The notes under the pieces: generated by a model
The model's input: only the letters and a program-made list of their open reading frames with translations
Database searches by the model: none
Told to the model about the DNA's origin: nothing
Translations under genes and position numbers: made by a program
In this document: positions 3,750 through 10,333 of the stretch, piece by piece
How the letters are laid out: each line of letters opens with the position of its first letter
Position numbering within the stretch: position 1 is the stretch's first letter
Source: a virus
IMG/VR virus record: IMGVR_UViG_3300006059_000006
Coordinates: 1 to 36,238 of that record
Direction: 5' to 3' (one strand)
DNA: 36,238 nucleotides

Positions 3750-4005
3750 AGCCGAGGCGCTTGGCGTGCTCGGCCTCACAGGTCGGCCGCGTGTCGACAA
3801 AATTCAGACCGTGTTCCGCCTCGCGATGCGCGACGCGCATCCAGACACGTCTCTCAGCGGCAGCGCCGACAAGGTGCAGCGCCTCAAAGCGGCACGCGAC
3901 TGTCTACTACACCACGACGCGTTCGGAGATTCTCCTTGCAAACTGTGCCGCGGCGTAGGATACGTGAACGGGATCAAATGTTCTTCTTGCGGAGGTCGTA
4001 AGTGA
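3742..4005 (+). CDS. Mini J-domain protein with zinc-finger tail
   Basis: This 87-aa protein carries the Hsp70-stimulating HPD tripeptide (residues 33-35, in MRDAHPD) between two predicted helices, as in a J-domain. It is followed by CKLCRGVGYVNGIKC and CSSCGG, a single CxxCxGxG-type zinc site (Cys66, 69, 80, 83) like half of the DnaJ zinc region. It would recruit the host DnaK chaperone, possibly to remodel replication complexes. It overlaps the HD gene by 8 bases and the next gene as GTGA. It lacks the rest of DnaJ (G/F-rich and substrate domains). The J-domain call is by motif only. Confidence 0.75.
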   Translation: MDRAEALGVLGLTGRPRVDKIQTVFRLAMRDAHPDTSLSGSADKVQRLKAARDCLLHHDAFGDSPCKLCRGVGYVNGIKCSSCGGRK

Positions 4006-4400
4006 GCTATCTGGAAAAGGGCGGTCCGATGCCGGCGTCGCTAGGGCGCTGCGCCGACTTGCTTTACGATGTCAAGCAGCTTAGGCTCGAAATGCAGCGC
4101 CAGACGGACGAGATCAAAGCGCGCGAGACGGAGATCACAAATCACATTATCTCCAACGCCAACGCCGACAATCAAGCGTTCGGCGGCCAGCACCATATCG
4201 CCAAGATCGTCAAAGAGGAAGAACCCGTGATCGAAGACTGGGGCGTCTTCTGCTCGTGGGTTCGCAAGAACGATCGCTTCGACCTGATCCAGAAGCGCAT
4301 CAATTCTAAGGCCGTGTCCGAAGTCAACGCCACTCAAGGTCGCTCGCTGCCGGGCCTTGGCACTTTCACCGCTGTCAAAATCAGCTTGACCAAGCTCTAG
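4002..4400 (+). CDS. Hypothetical replication-operon protein (132 aa)
   Basis: GTG 4002 overlaps the previous stop and has GGAGG 6 bases upstream, so it is preferred over ATG 4029. Residues about 20-50 are strongly helical and charged (LRLEMQRQTDEIKARETEI), probably a short coiled coil. The C-terminal half has EDWGVFCSWVRKNDRFDLI and a conserved-looking PGLGTFTAVKISLTKL end. It resembles unnamed proteins that sit next to DNA polymerase in podophages. No enzyme motif is visible. A structural or adaptor role in replication is possible but not shown. Confidence 0.7.
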   Translation: MSYLEKGGPMPASLGRCADLLYDVKQLRLEMQRQTDEIKARETEITNHIISNANADNQAFGGQHHIAKIVKEEEPVIEDWGVFCSWVRKNDRFDLIQKRINSKAVSEVNATQGRSLPGLGTFTAVKISLTKL

Positions 4401-4411
4401 GAGATTCGCAC

Positions 4412-5203
4412 ATGGGAACGGAGTTAGTGTCTTTTCGCGAGCGGCTTGTCGCCGACGCCACGGCCGCCGCGGCGCGCGAGCAGCGCAGTTCGGCGATGTT
4501 GTCGTTGCAAGGCGGTGTGTTCGCCATTGGCGGCCAGACGCTCGGCTCGCGCATCATCGCCGTCGTCCTCGACAGCTACTTCGCGAACGAGTTCTACGAC
4601 CCGTCGAAGCCCTACGATCCCGAAGACCCGCAGCCGCCTGTCTGCTACGCCTTCGCACGCGACGGCAAGCACGAGATGCGTCCGCACGAGTCGATGCAGG
4701 CGGACCTCACGTTCTTCAAGCCGCAGTCGCCGTGGGACATGAACGTCAACGCGCCGGGGCTGTGCTCGGGCTGCGTGCAGAACAAGTGGGGCTCGCAGCC
4801 GGGCCGTAAGGGCAAGGCGTGCAAGAACCGGGAAACTCTGACTTTGCTTCCCGCCGGCTTCTTTCAGCCGCCCAAGTCGCGCGGCGGAACGTCGGAGCCG
4901 ACGCTGTTCGACGACCCGGCGCACTTCGCCAAAGCCGACGCCGTGGGCCTCAAGCTCCCCGTCACGTCGGGGGCCAACTGGGCTGCCTACGTCACTCAGC
5001 TTGCGGCGTCTCACCGCCTGCCGCCCTACGGCGTGTACACCGAAATTTATCTCGAAAACGACCCCAAGTCGCAGTACAAGGTCAAGTTCGACATGCTCGG
5101 CGAGCTTCCCGAATCGCTATTCGAGATCGTCATGCGCAAGGTCGATGGCGTCATCTCGACTCCGTTCAAGGGCTACGAACCCCCAGAGAAGGCTCCGTTT
5201 TGA
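4412..5203 (+). CDS. Hypothetical protein with probable zinc site; candidate ssDNA-binding protein
   Basis: The 263-aa product has four cysteines that could bind zinc: Cys78, then CSGC (118, 121) and Cys137 in GRKGKACKNR. The segment NKWGSQPGRKGKACKNR is basic, and the C-terminus is strand-rich and ends in a short charged and proline-rich tail. This Cys/Lys-rich pattern recurs in unnamed phage proteins encoded beside DNA polymerase. By position, just upstream of the polymerase, it could be the ssDNA-binding protein that is otherwise missing from this operon. I do not see an OB-fold signature I could defend. Its TGA overlaps the TTG start of the polymerase. Confidence 0.75.
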   Translation: MGTELVSFRERLVADATAAAAREQRSSAMLSLQGGVFAIGGQTLGSRIIAVVLDSYFANEFYDPSKPYDPEDPQPPVCYAFARDGKHEMRPHESMQADLTFFKPQSPWDMNVNAPGLCSGCVQNKWGSQPGRKGKACKNRETLTLLPAGFFQPPKSRGGTSEPTLFDDPAHFAKADAVGLKLPVTSGANWAAYVTQLAASHRLPPYGVYTEIYLENDPKSQYKVKFDMLGELPESLFEIVMRKVDGVISTPFKGYEPPEKAPF

Positions 5204-7068
5204 TCACGATCGACTTCGAGACGCATCCTATCGAGGACCGGCCGGGCTACCCGCCGTTCCCGGTAGGCGTGGCGATCAAGCGCGAGGGGAGCCCAGCGCG
5301 CTATTTGCATTGGGGCTCCAAGCGCCTCGGCGCGGCCGACCCCCTCGACCCTGAGGCGTTCGCCTACGCGAGAGAGATGCTTGAGGGCATTTGGGAACGC
5401 GGCGGGGAGCCTCTGCTGTTCCACAACGCCAAGTTCGACCTCGAAGTCGCAGAGGCTCATTTTGGCCTACGCGTGCCGGTCTGGCGTCGCGTCCACGACA
5501 CGATGTTCCTCGCCTACCTTAACGATCCTCACGCGCGCTCTCTCGGTCTTAAGGACCTCGCCGCCGAGCATTTGGACTGGCCGCCAGAAGAACTCGATGC
5601 GCTCGGCGTTTGGGTCGAGACGTGCAAGAAGCGACTCAATGAGATCGACCCGTCGCAGCCGGCGACGCGCAAGAACGCAAGCGCGTGGATTTGGGCGATG
5701 CCCAGCGCGCTCGTCGAACCCTACGCGCTCGGCGACGTTGACCGCGCGGAAGCGCTCTACAACCGCCTTCGTCCGCGCATAGACAGAGACGGCATGACGG
5801 CGGCTTACAACCGCGAGCGCGAGTTGATGCCGATCCTGCTGCGTAACGAGCAGTACGGCATGCGTCTCGACCCGCGCATCGCCGAAGACATCGTCGTATA
5901 CGATAAGGCCGGAGAGCGCGTAGAGGACGCCGTGCGCGGCTACCTCCGACGGCCGGACCTCAATCTCGACGCCGATCAAGACGTGGCGCAGGCGATCATC
6001 AGCGCCGGGCTCATCAAAGAGGCCGACTTCCCGCGCACCGACAAGGGCGCTCTAAGCATGTCGAAGGAGGAATTGCGCCCCGAACTTTTCTCCGACCCGT
6101 CGTTCGCCAGCGCGCTCGGATACCGCAATCGCCTCAAGACGTGCCTAAACACCTTCCTGATTCCTTGGAACGCGCAGGCGCGCGCCAACGGCGGCTACAT
6201 CACGACGAATTGGAACCAAGTGCGGGGCCAGAACGGCGGGACACGCACTGGACGCCCTAGCACCAACAACCACAACTTCCTGAATCTGCCGAAGTCGTTC
6301 ATCGGCAAGGACGACGGCTACATGCATCCCGCCTTCTTGGGCGTGCCCGAGTTGCCGCTGTGCCGGCGCTATATCCTGCCCGACGAAGGCCACGTCTTCC
6401 TGCACCGGGACTACAGCGGTCAAGAGCTTCGCGTGTTCGCTCAGGCCGAACAGGGCGCGCTCTACCGCGAGTATCAGCGCGACCCGCGCATCGATCCGCA
6501 CGCTTGGGTCAAAGCCATGATGGAGCCTATCGCGAAGCGCGAGCTTGCGCGCACTCCCGTCAAGGTGCTAAACTTCCAATCCATCTACGGAGGCGGCGTC
6601 CCGGCGCTGCAAGCCAAGCTGCGCTGCACGACGGCCGAAGCGAAGGCTCTAAAGTCTGCGCACGACAAGGCGCTGCCGGGGCGCAAGATGGTCTTCGAAG
6701 AAATCACGCGCGTTATTCGCGCAGGCGGAGCGATCCGTACGCTCGGCGGCCGGCTGTTCAACGCGGAGAGGCCGGGGCTCGACGGCCGCGAAAAAATCTA
6801 CAAGCTCATCAACTACTGGGTCCAAGGCTCCGCCGCGGAGTTGACGAAACAGGCGATCATCGACTGGCATAACGCGCCCGAGCGCGAGGCTCGGTTTATG
6901 GTCACGGTCTATGACGAGATCAACGTGAGCGCGCCCGACGACGTGGCGGAGACGCAAATGGCGGTGCTGCGCGAGGTTATGGAAGCTCCTCGGTTCGGCA
7001 TGGCGGTGCCGATGTTGAGCGACGGCAAGCGCGGCCCGAATTGGGCCGACTTGGAGAAATGCGAATGA
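5200..7068 (+). CDS. DNA polymerase, family A, with 3'-5' exonuclease
   Basis: The 622-aa protein replicates the phage genome. The proofreading exonuclease motifs are DFE (Asp5, Glu7), HNAKFD (Asn76, Asp80) and YALGD (Tyr175, Asp179). The polymerase motifs are A, HRDYSGQELRV (Asp404); B, RTPVKVLNFQSIYGGG (Arg451, Lys455, Tyr463); and C, TVYDEINVS (Asp572-Glu573). Motif C has Tyr where most family A enzymes have His (HDE). I chose TTG 5200 because it overlaps the previous stop as TTGA and puts the first exonuclease motif right after the start. Upstream in-frame sequence is the other gene read in the wrong frame. There is no 5'-nuclease domain. Confidence 0.95.
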   Translation: MITIDFETHPIEDRPGYPPFPVGVAIKREGSPARYLHWGSKRLGAADPLDPEAFAYAREMLEGIWERGGEPLLFHNAKFDLEVAEAHFGLRVPVWRRVHDTMFLAYLNDPHARSLGLKDLAAEHLDWPPEELDALGVWVETCKKRLNEIDPSQPATRKNASAWIWAMPSALVEPYALGDVDRAEALYNRLRPRIDRDGMTAAYNRERELMPILLRNEQYGMRLDPRIAEDIVVYDKAGERVEDAVRGYLRRPDLNLDADQDVAQAIISAGLIKEADFPRTDKGALSMSKEELRPELFSDPSFASALGYRNRLKTCLNTFLIPWNAQARANGGYITTNWNQVRGQNGGTRTGRPSTNNHNFLNLPKSFIGKDDGYMHPAFLGVPELPLCRRYILPDEGHVFLHRDYSGQELRVFAQAEQGALYREYQRDPRIDPHAWVKAMMEPIAKRELARTPVKVLNFQSIYGGGVPALQAKLRCTTAEAKALKSAHDKALPGRKMVFEEITRVIRAGGAIRTLGGRLFNAERPGLDGREKIYKLINYWVQGSAAELTKQAIIDWHNAPEREARFMVTVYDEINVSAPDDVAETQMAVLREVMEAPRFGMAVPMLSDGKRGPNWADLEKCE

Positions 7069-7179: not shown

Positions 7180-7839
7180 ATGACACAGTTCACTGGCGGC
7201 GTCTCCTTCACCGCGTGGGAGACGTTCACGAACTGCCCCGCGCGGTTCAAGTACGAAAAGATCGACAAGCTGCCGACGCAAGACAAGGCGTTCTTCGCCA
7301 AGGGCCGCGCGGCGCACGAGCATCTTGAAAAGGTCGTCATGGGCGCGCCGCTCGACGCCAAGATAGTGCCAAAGGAGCAAGAGTTCGTTCTTGAGGTCGG
7401 TGCTGCGCCGTTCGCCAAGTTCGTCGAAGAAAAGTGGGGCTTCCGAAACGACTGGATCGTCACGGATTGGCGCAACGCCGCCCTGCGCGCGATCATCGAC
7501 GTGCGCCTCGATTACGGCGACGGCTCGATGGAAGTCATCGATTGGAAGACCGGCAAGAAGCGCGGCGAGAGCGTCGCCCAAATGTCGCTGTTCGCCACGG
7601 CGGTCTTTCACCGCTACCCGTTCGTCGAGCAAGTGACGACGCGCCTCGTCTACGTCGAGAAGGGCGGACAGACAATCATGGACCACGCGAGGGCGGACCT
7701 TGCGAACATGACGAAGCAATGGGAGGAACGTTTTGCGTCGATCTTCAATGAAAGAGACTGGCTCCCGCGGCCAAACGAGTGGTGCCATTTCTGCGACTTC
7801 TCAAAAGCCAAAGGCGGCCCGTGTCGTTACGGAGGTTAA
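7180..7839 (+). CDS. Cas4/RecB-like PD-(D/E)XK nuclease with probable Fe-S cluster
   Basis: The 219-aa protein has the nuclease core of the RecB/Cas4 family: a conserved His in GRAAHEHLE (about 46), AIIDVRLDY (Asp107) and EVIDWKTGKK (Asp121, Lys123), then a QMSLFA helix. Four cysteines, one near the N-terminus (Cys19) and three near the C-terminus (202, 205, 215), are spaced as in the 4Fe-4S nucleases Cas4 and AddB. It probably degrades or trims DNA ends during replication or recombination. It sits just before a VRR-NUC nuclease and an SNF2 helicase, a common phage trio. The cluster is inferred from the cysteines. Its end overlaps the next gene by about 90 bases. Confidence 0.85.
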   Translation: MTQFTGGVSFTAWETFTNCPARFKYEKIDKLPTQDKAFFAKGRAAHEHLEKVVMGAPLDAKIVPKEQEFVLEVGAAPFAKFVEEKWGFRNDWIVTDWRNAALRAIIDVRLDYGDGSMEVIDWKTGKKRGESVAQMSLFATAVFHRYPFVEQVTTRLVYVEKGGQTIMDHARADLANMTKQWEERFASIFNERDWLPRPNEWCHFCDFSKAKGGPCRYGG

Positions 7840-8314
7840 CGTCCGCAACCCTGTCGTCAAATGGGCGAAGGCCAATGGCGTCCTGCACCAACGCATGTCG
7901 TTCCGCCCCGGCGTGCGAGCGGGGTTCCCCGACGACGTGTTCATGTTCCAGTTCGGCGAGATCGTGTTCGTGGAGTTCAAGAGGCCCGGCAAAGAGCCGA
8001 CGCCGTTGCAGCACGAAAGATTGGAGAAGCTGCGTGCCTATGGGTTCGATGCAACTTGGTTCGACGACGCCGAGCGCGCGAAGGCGTATCTCGCAAGAGT
8101 GGCGGCCTCTGCCTTACATGGAACGGGCATCGTCGTTCCTCGCTACGCACTACGCAGCGGGGCTGCCGCTCAAGCCCGGCGGTCGAAAGACATCTATCAC
8201 GCTATCCGCTTTCCAAATCCTGCGAGCGCAGGGCAAGGCGCGGACGATGCTGGTGGTCGCGCCGCTGCGCGTGGCTCGCGAGACGTGGCCGGCGGAGGTC
8301 GCGAAGTGGAGTGA
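7748..8314 (+). CDS. VRR-NUC domain nuclease with odd C-terminal overlap
   Basis: From ATG 7748 the protein carries a full VRR-NUC domain: TEVNVRNPVVKWA (Glu29), GFPDD (about 59-63), VFVEFKRPG (Glu76, Lys78) and TPLQHERLEKLRAYG. These are the metal-dependent PD-(D/E)XK residues of structure-selective nucleases. The domain ends near 8100 (AKAYLARV). The last about 70 residues to the stop at 8312-8314 are Ala/Arg/Gly-rich and look like the helicase gene read in the wrong frame. The first 90 bases overlap the preceding nuclease gene. Either the tail is a by-product of overlap, or the real product ends or shifts frame near 8100. Start is moderately sure; the domain is certain. Confidence 0.8.
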   Translation: MKETGSRGQTSGAISATSQKPKAARVVTEVNVRNPVVKWAKANGVLHQRMSFRPGVRAGFPDDVFMFQFGEIVFVEFKRPGKEPTPLQHERLEKLRAYGFDATWFDDAERAKAYLARVAASALHGTGIVVPRYALRSGAAAQARRSKDIYHAIRFPNPASAGQGADDAGGRAAARGSRDVAGGGREVE

Positions 8315-10115
8315 GTTCGCCGGCCTAAGGGTCGCGCTGCTGCACGGTCCGAAAAAAGACGACATTCTTCGGTCAAGCTCGGCCGATGTCTACCTCATCA
8401 ATTACGAGGGACTGCCTTGGCTTTGTAACAACTACTTCGGCCGACCGCTGCCGTTCGACGTGATCGTGTTCGACGAGTTGACGCGTCTCAAGAACGCGCA
8501 GAGCGGGCGTAGCAAGGCGCTGCGCCCGCACCTTAAGGGCGGACCGCGGTGGCGTTGGGGGCTTACAGGATCACTAGCCGGGGACGGCGATTATCTCGAC
8601 GTGTTCGGCCAGCAGCTTGTTCTCGACGACGGCGCGGCTCTCGGCAAGTTCGTCACGTGGTATCGCAACGCTCACTTCACTCAGGGGTTCGACGGGTTCA
8701 CCTATACGCTCAATCGCGGGCACGAGCAGCAGGTTCTCGCCAAGCTCGCTCCCTACTGGTTCCGCATGGAGGAAGCCGACTACGCCGAGCTTCCCGAGAT
8801 CGTCGACCATCCAATCGAGATCGCGCTGTCGGCGGGCAAGCGGCTCGCCTACACGACAATGCGCGATGCCTACGTGGCCAAGTTCGGCGATCGCACGATC
8901 ACGGCGGCCAACGCGGGCGCGGCCTACGCCAAGCTGGCGCAGATGGCCAACGGCGCGGTCTACGACGACGCGCGCGAGGTTCACCACATTCACGATGACA
9001 AGATCGAGGCTCTCGACGATCTCGTGGAGGAGTTGAACGGCCTGCCTCTGCTGCTCGGCTACGAATTCAACCATGATCTCGTCCGCTTGCAGAAGTGGCA
9101 TATCGATAGGTTCAAGAAGGAGTTGCCGTATCTCGGCAAGGGCACCAAGCCGGCGCAGGAAGCCGCGTGGATCGCAGCGTGGAGCCGTAACGAACTGCCG
9201 GTGCTCGCCGGGCATCCCGCCAGCATGGGGCACGGGTTAAATCTGCAAGAGGGCGGCTGCACGAACATTTGTTGGTTTTCGCTGCCGTGGAGTTACGAAC
9301 TCTACGACCAATTCGTGCGCCGCGTGCGCCGCGGCGGCAACGTCGCGCCCCGCGTTTTTAACCACATGCTCGTCGTCAAAGGAACGGTCGACGAAGAAAA
9401 GCTTGCATCCCGCGACGTAAAGGGGTTCACTACGGAAAACCTCGTCGCGATTCTCAACCGAGAGATTTCACGCGAGGAGCGAGAAACCGGACGCCGCCCC
9501 GGATCGGCCGGCAAGGAGAACGAAATGGTCGCCCGACTGACACGACCCGCGGATAACTCCGCGGCTGCATCCACGCAGGTCCCCGGATGGGGCGCTCAGC
9601 CTATCCAGAATCAGCCCGTCGCCGCCGCGCCTGCCGTCCAGCAGGCTACGAGCGGCTGGGGAGCCACGCAGACCTCCCCGACGGGGCCGCAGACTGCCCC
9701 ACAGTCGCCTCCTATGGGCTGGGGCGCTCCGGCCGCCGCTCCCGACACCGCGCAGCGCGAAGCTATCCGGGCGCAGATCGCTCCCGACGCCAAGCCGGCG
9801 GTCGGCGCAGGCTTTTCCGGCGCAGCGGCGTCCGCCGCGGCCGCGATCGCCTCAACCAACTATGACGAGGTCCCTGCCGCGCAGCCTGCGGGGACTGCGA
9901 AGCGCACGCGACGCACAAAGGCGGAGATGGAAGCCGACGCCAAGTCGGCCGACGAGAATTCTCCCGCTCCGCGCGTGGACAACACCATGGCGGTCGTCGC
10001 CGCGCTCAGCGCGCGCATGGAGTGCCTCAAACTGGCGTTCGCCGATGCAACGACCCCTCTCGGCGAAGGTCTGGCGGTCGCCGACGACCTCTGGGCGTGG
10101 GTCAACAAAATGTAG
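8118..10115 (+). CDS. SNF2-type DNA helicase with long C-terminal extension
   Basis: From ATG 8118 this is a 665-aa SF2 helicase of the short phage SNF2 class. It has an ATP-binding stretch KPGGRKTS (Lys24), VVAPLRVARETW, VIVFDELTRLKN (Asp119-Glu120), LTGSLAGDGDYLDVF, and a C-terminal lobe with GHPASMGHGLNLQ and YDQFVRRVRRGG. Its partner is probably the VRR-NUC nuclease just upstream. The conserved helicase N-terminus WRPLPYMERASSFL begins 18 bases before this ATG, so the true start may lie upstream (ATG 8040) or need a frameshift. Residues about 470-665 form a Pro/Ala/Gln-rich tail with three GWGA motifs and a basic segment, which is unusual for the family. Confidence 0.85.
   Translation: MERASSFLATHYAAGLPLKPGGRKTSITLSAFQILRAQGKARTMLVVAPLRVARETWPAEVAKWSEFAGLRVALLHGPKKDDILRSSSADVYLINYEGLPWLCNNYFGRPLPFDVIVFDELTRLKNAQSGRSKALRPHLKGGPRWRWGLTGSLAGDGDYLDVFGQQLVLDDGAALGKFVTWYRNAHFTQGFDGFTYTLNRGHEQQVLAKLAPYWFRMEEADYAELPEIVDHPIEIALSAGKRLAYTTMRDAYVAKFGDRTITAANAGAAYAKLAQMANGAVYDDAREVHHIHDDKIEALDDLVEELNGLPLLLGYEFNHDLVRLQKWHIDRFKKELPYLGKGTKPAQEAAWIAAWSRNELPVLAGHPASMGHGLNLQEGGCTNICWFSLPWSYELYDQFVRRVRRGGNVAPRVFNHMLVVKGTVDEEKLASRDVKGFTTENLVAILNREISREERETGRRPGSAGKENEMVARLTRPADNSAAASTQVPGWGAQPIQNQPVAAAPAVQQATSGWGATQTSPTGPQTAPQSPPMGWGAPAAAPDTAQREAIRAQIAPDAKPAVGAGFSGAAASAAAAIASTNYDEVPAAQPAGTAKRTRRTKAEMEADAKSADENSPAPRVDNTMAVVAALSARMECLKLAFADATTPLGEGLAVADDLWAWVNKM
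9513..9527 (+). promoter_or_regulatory. In-frame internal ribosome site and ATG inside the helicase gene
   Basis: AAGGAG at 9513-9518 stands 6 bases before an in-frame ATG (9525-9527). This is one of the best ribosome sites in the window and falls exactly where the helicase domain ends. Translation from here would give a separate 196-aa protein (9525-10115). It starts MVARLTRPADNSAAAS, has three GWGA motifs (from 9585, 9654 and 9717), a basic AKRTRRTKAEMEA stretch and a helical, likely amphipathic C-terminus ending DDLWAWVNKM. Confidence 0.6.
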
Positions 10116-10124
10116 GAGGTCCCA

Positions 10125-10190
10125 GTGGTTTACTGGTTCATCGTCATAGCTCTCGCCGTGGCCTGCTTCGTCGTTTGGGCCACGACGTGA
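10125..10190 (+). CDS. Tiny membrane peptide (21 aa)
   Basis: GTG 10125 is preceded by a full AGGAGGT ribosome site at 10115-10121, just after the helicase stop. The 21-codon frame ends at TGA 10188-10190 and encodes essentially a single membrane helix (MVYWFIVIALAVACF and a short tail). Its end overlaps the GTG start of the next small gene by four bases. The strong ribosome site and the coupling are the evidence for translation. The function is unknown. Confidence 0.5.
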   Translation: MVYWFIVIALAVACFVVWATT

Positions 10191-10333
10191 AGTTCCTCGC
10201 GATCCTAGTTTTTGTGATCGCCCTACTCTCCGTCGCCATGGAGCGACGGAGAGCTTCAAACTGGCTGTTGACAGCGGCGTTCGTGCTACTGTTCATCTCG
10301 GCCTGCAACAGCAATCAACTGGGGTTCAATTGA
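10187..10333 (+). CDS. Small membrane protein with internal lipoprotein-like signal (48 aa)
   Basis: GTG 10187 overlaps the previous stop (GTGA), and the TGA at 10331-10333 overlaps the next ATG. The product has two hydrophobic segments (LAILVFVIALLSV and WLLTAAFVLLFI) separated by basic MERRRAS. The second segment ends in a lipobox-like ISAC (Cys40) followed by only eight residues. Starting instead at the internal ATG 10238 gives a 31-aa peptide that looks like a very short lipoprotein. That ATG sits in the loop of a perfect hairpin. A role in envelope stress or lysis timing is possible; no family is recognised. Confidence 0.5.
   Translation: MKFLAILVFVIALLSVAMERRRASNWLLTAAFVLLFISACNSNQLGFN
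10226..10253 (+). promoter_or_regulatory. 11-bp perfect hairpin presenting an internal ATG
   Basis: CTCTCCGTCGC (10226-10236) pairs perfectly with GCGACGGAGAG (10243-10253) around the six-base loop CATGGA. The loop contains the in-frame ATG 10238 of the short lipoprotein-like product. No T-run follows, so this is not an intrinsic terminator. It could control the choice between the two starts, but there is no clear ribosome site for the internal ATG. Confidence 0.5.

Follow-up and report, generated by a model that had tools for sequence, protein, structure and literature searches.

The SNF2-type helicase gene at 8040–10115 of a 36,238-base virus record from IMG/VR (the whole of which we refer to as the window) is, judging from its sequence and that of its relatives, very likely a one-gene, two-protein unit, specifying a helicase with a C-terminal tail and the same tail as a free protein. 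An earlier note on this DNA had pointed to an AAGGAG ahead of an ATG at 9525 that shares the reading frame of the SNF2 gene and is situated where the helicase ends, and this is borne out by the sequence, in which the two elements are separated by the spacer AACGAA (9519–9524). The gene and its internal start are composed as follows.

8040–10115, + strand: complete SNF2-type helicase including its C-terminal tail, about 691 aa (phrog_62 DNA helicase, 1e-104; Pfam SNF2-rel_dom); 8040 is the best candidate for its start
8160–8192, + strand: Walker A region with the sequence GLPLKPGGRKT, which departs in a clade-specific way from GLFLDPGLGKT (alignments A1 and A3)
9513–9518, + strand: internal Shine-Dalgarno (SD) site AAGGAG, 6 nt upstream of the ATG, duplex energy -8.5
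9525–9527, + strand: internal start codon ATG in the helicase frame, with GTG instead in three relatives
9525–10115, + strand: putative nested tail protein, 196 aa, MVARLTRP...DDLWAWVNKM (relatives; alignments A4 and A7)

The open reading frame scores above the Pfam PF00176 cut-off, and a Foldseek search with its AlphaFold2 model recovers a two-lobed SNF2 fold, with SWI2/SNF2 ATPases as the best PDB matches (E 1e-22). It is this profile and fold, not the Walker A motif, that place the protein among the SNF2-type SF2 helicases, since the window reads PGGRKT in place of the canonical GxGKT, with the K and T retained. The Arg for Gly substitution before KT is common to the near clade, PG[GYL]RKTS being present in the window and in loci L006, L007, L008, L086, L087, L089 and L092, and PGLGKTS being the family norm. 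The AlphaFold2 model of 8106–10112 places the end of the last helicase helix at residue 460 and loses confidence from residue 462 onwards; the internal Met, residue 474, lies 13 residues past this last predicted helix. A scan of 9200–10300 for an internal promoter of the sigma-70 type gave no site.

Relatives were gathered by helicase profile scans of viral contigs, plus one of bacterial and archaeal genomes, giving 306 distinct SNF2 open reading frames that extend to the end of the helicase; all come from uncultivated phage contigs, apart from one MAG contig. Two classes emerge from the length remaining past the helicase profile. About 270 of the 306 stop no more than about 20 residues further on, whereas 35 continue in frame into a tail of about 125–257 residues (three of these are cut by contig ends); 31 of the 35 are non-redundant after removal of near-copies. 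All 35 have a start codon and an SD-like site at the helicase-tail junction, 9–35 codons past the helicase end, and the start is ATG in 28 and GTG in 3 of the non-redundant set. The arrangement is AAGGAG-N6-ATG in both L006 and L098, GGAGG-N5-ATG in L106, and AGGAG-N6-GTG in L007. This same codon is the first of a conserved motif at the tail's N-terminus, M-x(1-4)-[KR]-L, which in its longer form reads M-x(1-4)-[KR]-L-[ST]-R.

At the 31 junction starts the SD duplex energy has a median of -7.4 kcal/mol, versus -2.2 at 333 other in-frame ATGs in the same open reading frames (Mann-Whitney p 5e-17; this and the Wilcoxon value below overstate independence because the lineages share ancestry). Windows of 53 codons were also compared, so as to allow for picking the best start in each, and an ATG with an SD energy of -5 or below is present in 90% of the junction windows of tail-bearing relatives, versus 13% of helicase-core windows and 10% of the terminal 53-codon stretches of tail-less helicases. 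From -20 to +20 the mRNA is less structured than the open reading frame's own background in 31/31 cases (Wilcoxon 1.2e-6), and the GC content around the junction start is 0.47 versus a background of 0.60. The attributes looked for in an in-frame nested gene, a conserved start codon with an SD-like site and less structured mRNA, are thus present. The earlier note had proposed a full-length helicase together with a free tail from the internal site; conservation of the start, the SD site, the low structure and the fusion in every tail-bearing relative strongly supports this, and it is from these that we infer both products.

An alternative, to which we assign a low probability, is that the fused helicase is the sole product, with the purine-rich, charged stretch acting as a linker or as a ribosome-pausing sequence that would give the helicase time to fold ahead of the tail, and with the Met being kept for a protein reason. 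Interdomain linkers are commonly charged and A-rich, and when the junctions are recoded synonymously with the amino acids fixed, an equally good SD-like site often arises. This recoding test is weakly positive (combined p 0.014), its weakness reflecting that Lys-Glu and Gln-Glu codons themselves make AGGAG, and a charged peptide linker could account for part of the SD signal. However, neither a pause nor a linker needs a start codon, and a correctly spaced one is found in 31/31 cases (28 ATG, 3 GTG), even though Met otherwise makes up just 1.2% of tail residues. The GG of the SD core falls in each of the three codon phases (24/4/3), over residues that vary, so the SD-like site is not merely a peptide motif, and the conserved N-terminal motif begins exactly at the internal start.

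The fusion is as regular as the start. It is common to 35 contigs, and a contig error is therefore ruled out as its source. A phylogenetic tree groups 26 tail-bearing rows in one clade, with SH-aLRT support of 97, and another 5 in the clade next to it, and neither contains a tail-less row; 30 of the 31 non-redundant tail-bearing helicases belong to these two adjacent clades, and L054 lies outside. The fusion, start codon and SD-like site are all kept at helicase core identities of roughly 40–60%.

The earlier note had also raised the prospect of relatives in which the tail is a separate gene. For the whole tail the searches were negative: no separate copy was found by tblastn in phages or by a peptide-pattern scan of viral contigs, a tail profile run over 32,802 open reading frames of the collected loci matched only at the ends of helicase open reading frames, a motif scan downstream of 271 tail-less helicases gave no stand-alone tail, and 16 phage records contain no second copy elsewhere, the tail being single-copy in each record. 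The prospect does hold for the C-terminal module of the tail, which corresponds to a separate small phage protein (see below). With a conserved internal start, a separate whole-tail gene is not expected, and since no stand-alone tail of the window type was found, the helicase-tail fusion plus the free tail appears itself to be the conserved arrangement.

These data also bear on a second alternative, which we consider very improbable, in which the fusion is accidental: an ancestral separate tail gene would have lost the stop codon upstream of it, leaving a working free tail and a read-through product tolerated as noise. The start and SD site do resemble those of an ordinary gene, the C-terminal module of the tail exists as separate small proteins, and other SNF2 phages have unrelated small proteins encoded by separate downstream genes. 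Neutral drift, however, should break the frame in some lineages, whereas no stop or frameshift separates helicase and tail in the clade, across linkers of 9 to 35 codons, and no unfused tail of the window type was found. A chance SD-like sequence without any second product is barely credible: a lone AAGGAG-N6-ATG in a single gene is not rare, but this one is kept in 35/35 tail-bearing relatives with strong controls.

A parallel arrangement is present in L054, where an in-frame tail (5417–5797) lies behind an internal AAGGAG-ATG; this tail is Lys-rich and unrelated in sequence to the window-type tails, from which it apparently arose separately. By eye, its C-terminus resembles the products of separate downstream genes (KxNPxREG-like) in L260 (2545–3348), L262 (4900–5583), L061 (5363–6046) and L348 (3317–3769).

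The 196-residue remainder of the protein was described in the earlier note as containing the motif GWGA three times and a patch of basic residues, and as helical at its end, all of which we recover from the sequence and from AlphaFold2 modeling, with the following organization.

9585–9728, + strand: disordered Pro/Gln/Ala-rich linker with three GWGA motifs (alignments; AlphaFold2)
9585–9596, 9654–9665 and 9717–9728, + strand: the GWGA motifs, the third being the conserved one (W66 of the tail)
9747–9779, + strand: short conserved helix with QREAI (QRERI in relatives), tail residues 75–85 (alignment; AlphaFold2)
9900–9920, + strand: basic patch KRTRRTK, conserved in kind among close relatives
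9984–10109, + strand: C-terminal two-helix hairpin, tail residues 154–171 and 179–195 (AlphaFold2 pLDDT mostly above 90)

When the tail is modeled alone, AlphaFold2 predicts disorder for residues 1–73, short helices at 75–85 and 93–110, and a confident hairpin at 154–195. The linker part is poorly conserved among relatives. Fold searches of BFVD and the PDB gave no useful match to the tail, as expected for a protein that is mostly disordered with a short hairpin. Comparison with single-stranded DNA-binding (SSB) families and folds gave matches at chance level only (phrog_6015, E 0.96; phrog_1867, E 0.73), and we reject an SSB identity for the tail. In distant relatives the N-terminal motif and linker are apparently kept and other short C-terminal modules are present, as judged by eye. 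In a neighboring helicase clade (L109, L111, L113, L118, L119, L265 and L270) NPFG(Q) repeats replace the GWG motifs in the nested tails, and these tails carry a different C-terminal module.

Profile comparisons indicate a relationship between the tail hairpin and the small G1RFP-like phage proteins of phrog_26515/5391, which occur on their own. The C-terminus of the L256 tail matches phrog_26515 (E 6e-9), and in a pairwise hhalign comparison the tail profile A7 matches gp45 of Mycobacterium phage Paito (E 1.5e-5). Paito gp45 (L401, 2492–2662) has 56 residues and is encoded directly after the RecT gene. It scores 20.7 bits against Pfam PF24182 (G1RFP), for which the gathering cut-off is 22.6; the tails of relatives score 13.6–15.4 bits, also below the cut-off, and the window's own tail gives no match. 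The phrog_26515/5391 and G1RFP proteins are thus similar in sequence to the C-terminal hairpin, but they stand alone at 45–56 aa, whereas here the hairpin terminates a fused tail, and the Pfam match is below the cut-off. G1RFP denotes 'Gene 1 ring forming protein' in Pfam, and we presume ring formation from this family name alone, a literature search having found no paper on G1RFP function.

The most likely scheme is that ribosomes initiating at about 8040 would make the SNF2-type helicase with its C-terminal tail, and that those binding the AAGGAG at 9513–9518 would start at the ATG at 9525 and make the 196-residue tail by itself. Both proteins are probably made, and the free tail may well equal or exceed the helicase in amount, because the internal SD site is stronger than that of the best candidate helicase start in 20/29 cases. 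Conservation of the fusion implies that helicase-linked tails matter, and conservation of the start and SD site implies that free tails do. We tentatively suggest that the free tail might serve the helicase as an accessory subunit encoded within its own gene. The C-terminal hairpin would then be a self-association module through which free and helicase-linked tails form an oligomer, and the flexible GWG/basic linker would contact DNA or another replication protein. A role for the free tail as a competitor or regulator, the former having been put forward in the earlier note, is compatible with the same data; the note's further suggestion of an adaptor to a replication clamp or to ssDNA is speculative.

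Two known systems are instructive for comparison. Phage T7 gene 4 encodes a 63 kDa primase-helicase and, from an internal start at codon 64, a 56 kDa helicase (PMC9198812). As here, an internal in-frame start in a phage replication helicase gene gives a shorter second protein alongside the long one, although the short T7 form is the helicase without its N-terminal zinc domain, whereas here it would be the C-terminal tail without the motor, and the T7 helicase is a RecA-type hexameric enzyme, whereas this one is SNF2 (SF2). Cas11 is translated from internal starts in cas10d, cas8b and cas8c and is the small subunit of the same complex (PMC11899642). The common feature is that a large subunit of a nucleic-acid enzyme has a C-terminal portion that is made separately as well, by initiation at an internal start (putatively so in the window), but Cas11 is a folded effector-complex subunit for which the need has been demonstrated, whereas the tail is largely disordered and has a putative role. 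We know of no sequence relation between Cas11 and the tail. By analogy, these helicases could perhaps represent an undescribed, widespread SNF2 group in which a nested free tail oligomerizes with helicase-linked tails through a G1RFP-like hairpin and sets the subunit ratio of a complex acting in replication or recombination, in a Cas11/Cascade-like manner, although we hold this reading to be somewhat doubtful.

The closest known phage helicases are those of AXL_3, PW916 and MW202621, which belong to the same SNF2 family and lie in a similar replication module with PolA and a RecB/Cas4-like exonuclease, but stop where the tail begins and are without the internal start. The nested tail arrangement was absent from the isolated-phage records searched, and a literature search found no paper describing a nested tail in phage SNF2 helicases. 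The principle of an internal start is that of T7 gene 4 and cas8/cas11. Gene callers keep only the longest open reading frame and so overlook in-frame starts inside it. In the present case comparison of genomes was enough to single out an internal start kept across deeply diverged phages, adding a clear SNF2 case beside T7 gene 4 and cas8/cas11 and giving a testable handle on the role of SNF2 helicases in phages. Should the free tail prove to be an accessory subunit, helicase purified from the annotated open reading frame may be a mixture of two proteins, and recoded genes in which the internal site is destroyed may fail to yield the small one.

The early region of the window also encodes a DUF3854/DUF5906 primase-helicase-like protein, a nucleotidase, a family A DNA polymerase, a PD-(D/E)XK exonuclease and a VRR_NUC-like frame. 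The VRR_NUC-like nuclease frame (7733–8314) has no stop before 8314, so that it may share up to about 270 bases (8040–8314), read in a different frame, with the beginning of the helicase gene; L095 (IMGVR_UViG_3300020122_000173) looks similar in this respect. In L095 the SNF2 gene is interrupted at approximately 3900–4350 by a stretch with an HNH-endonuclease-like open reading frame, as though an intron or a homing element had inserted there. In the window, the stretch 4412–5203, immediately before the DNA polymerase gene, encodes a 263-residue protein that is without a Pfam match and contains a four-cysteine cluster, and which is a candidate zinc-containing ssDNA-binding protein.
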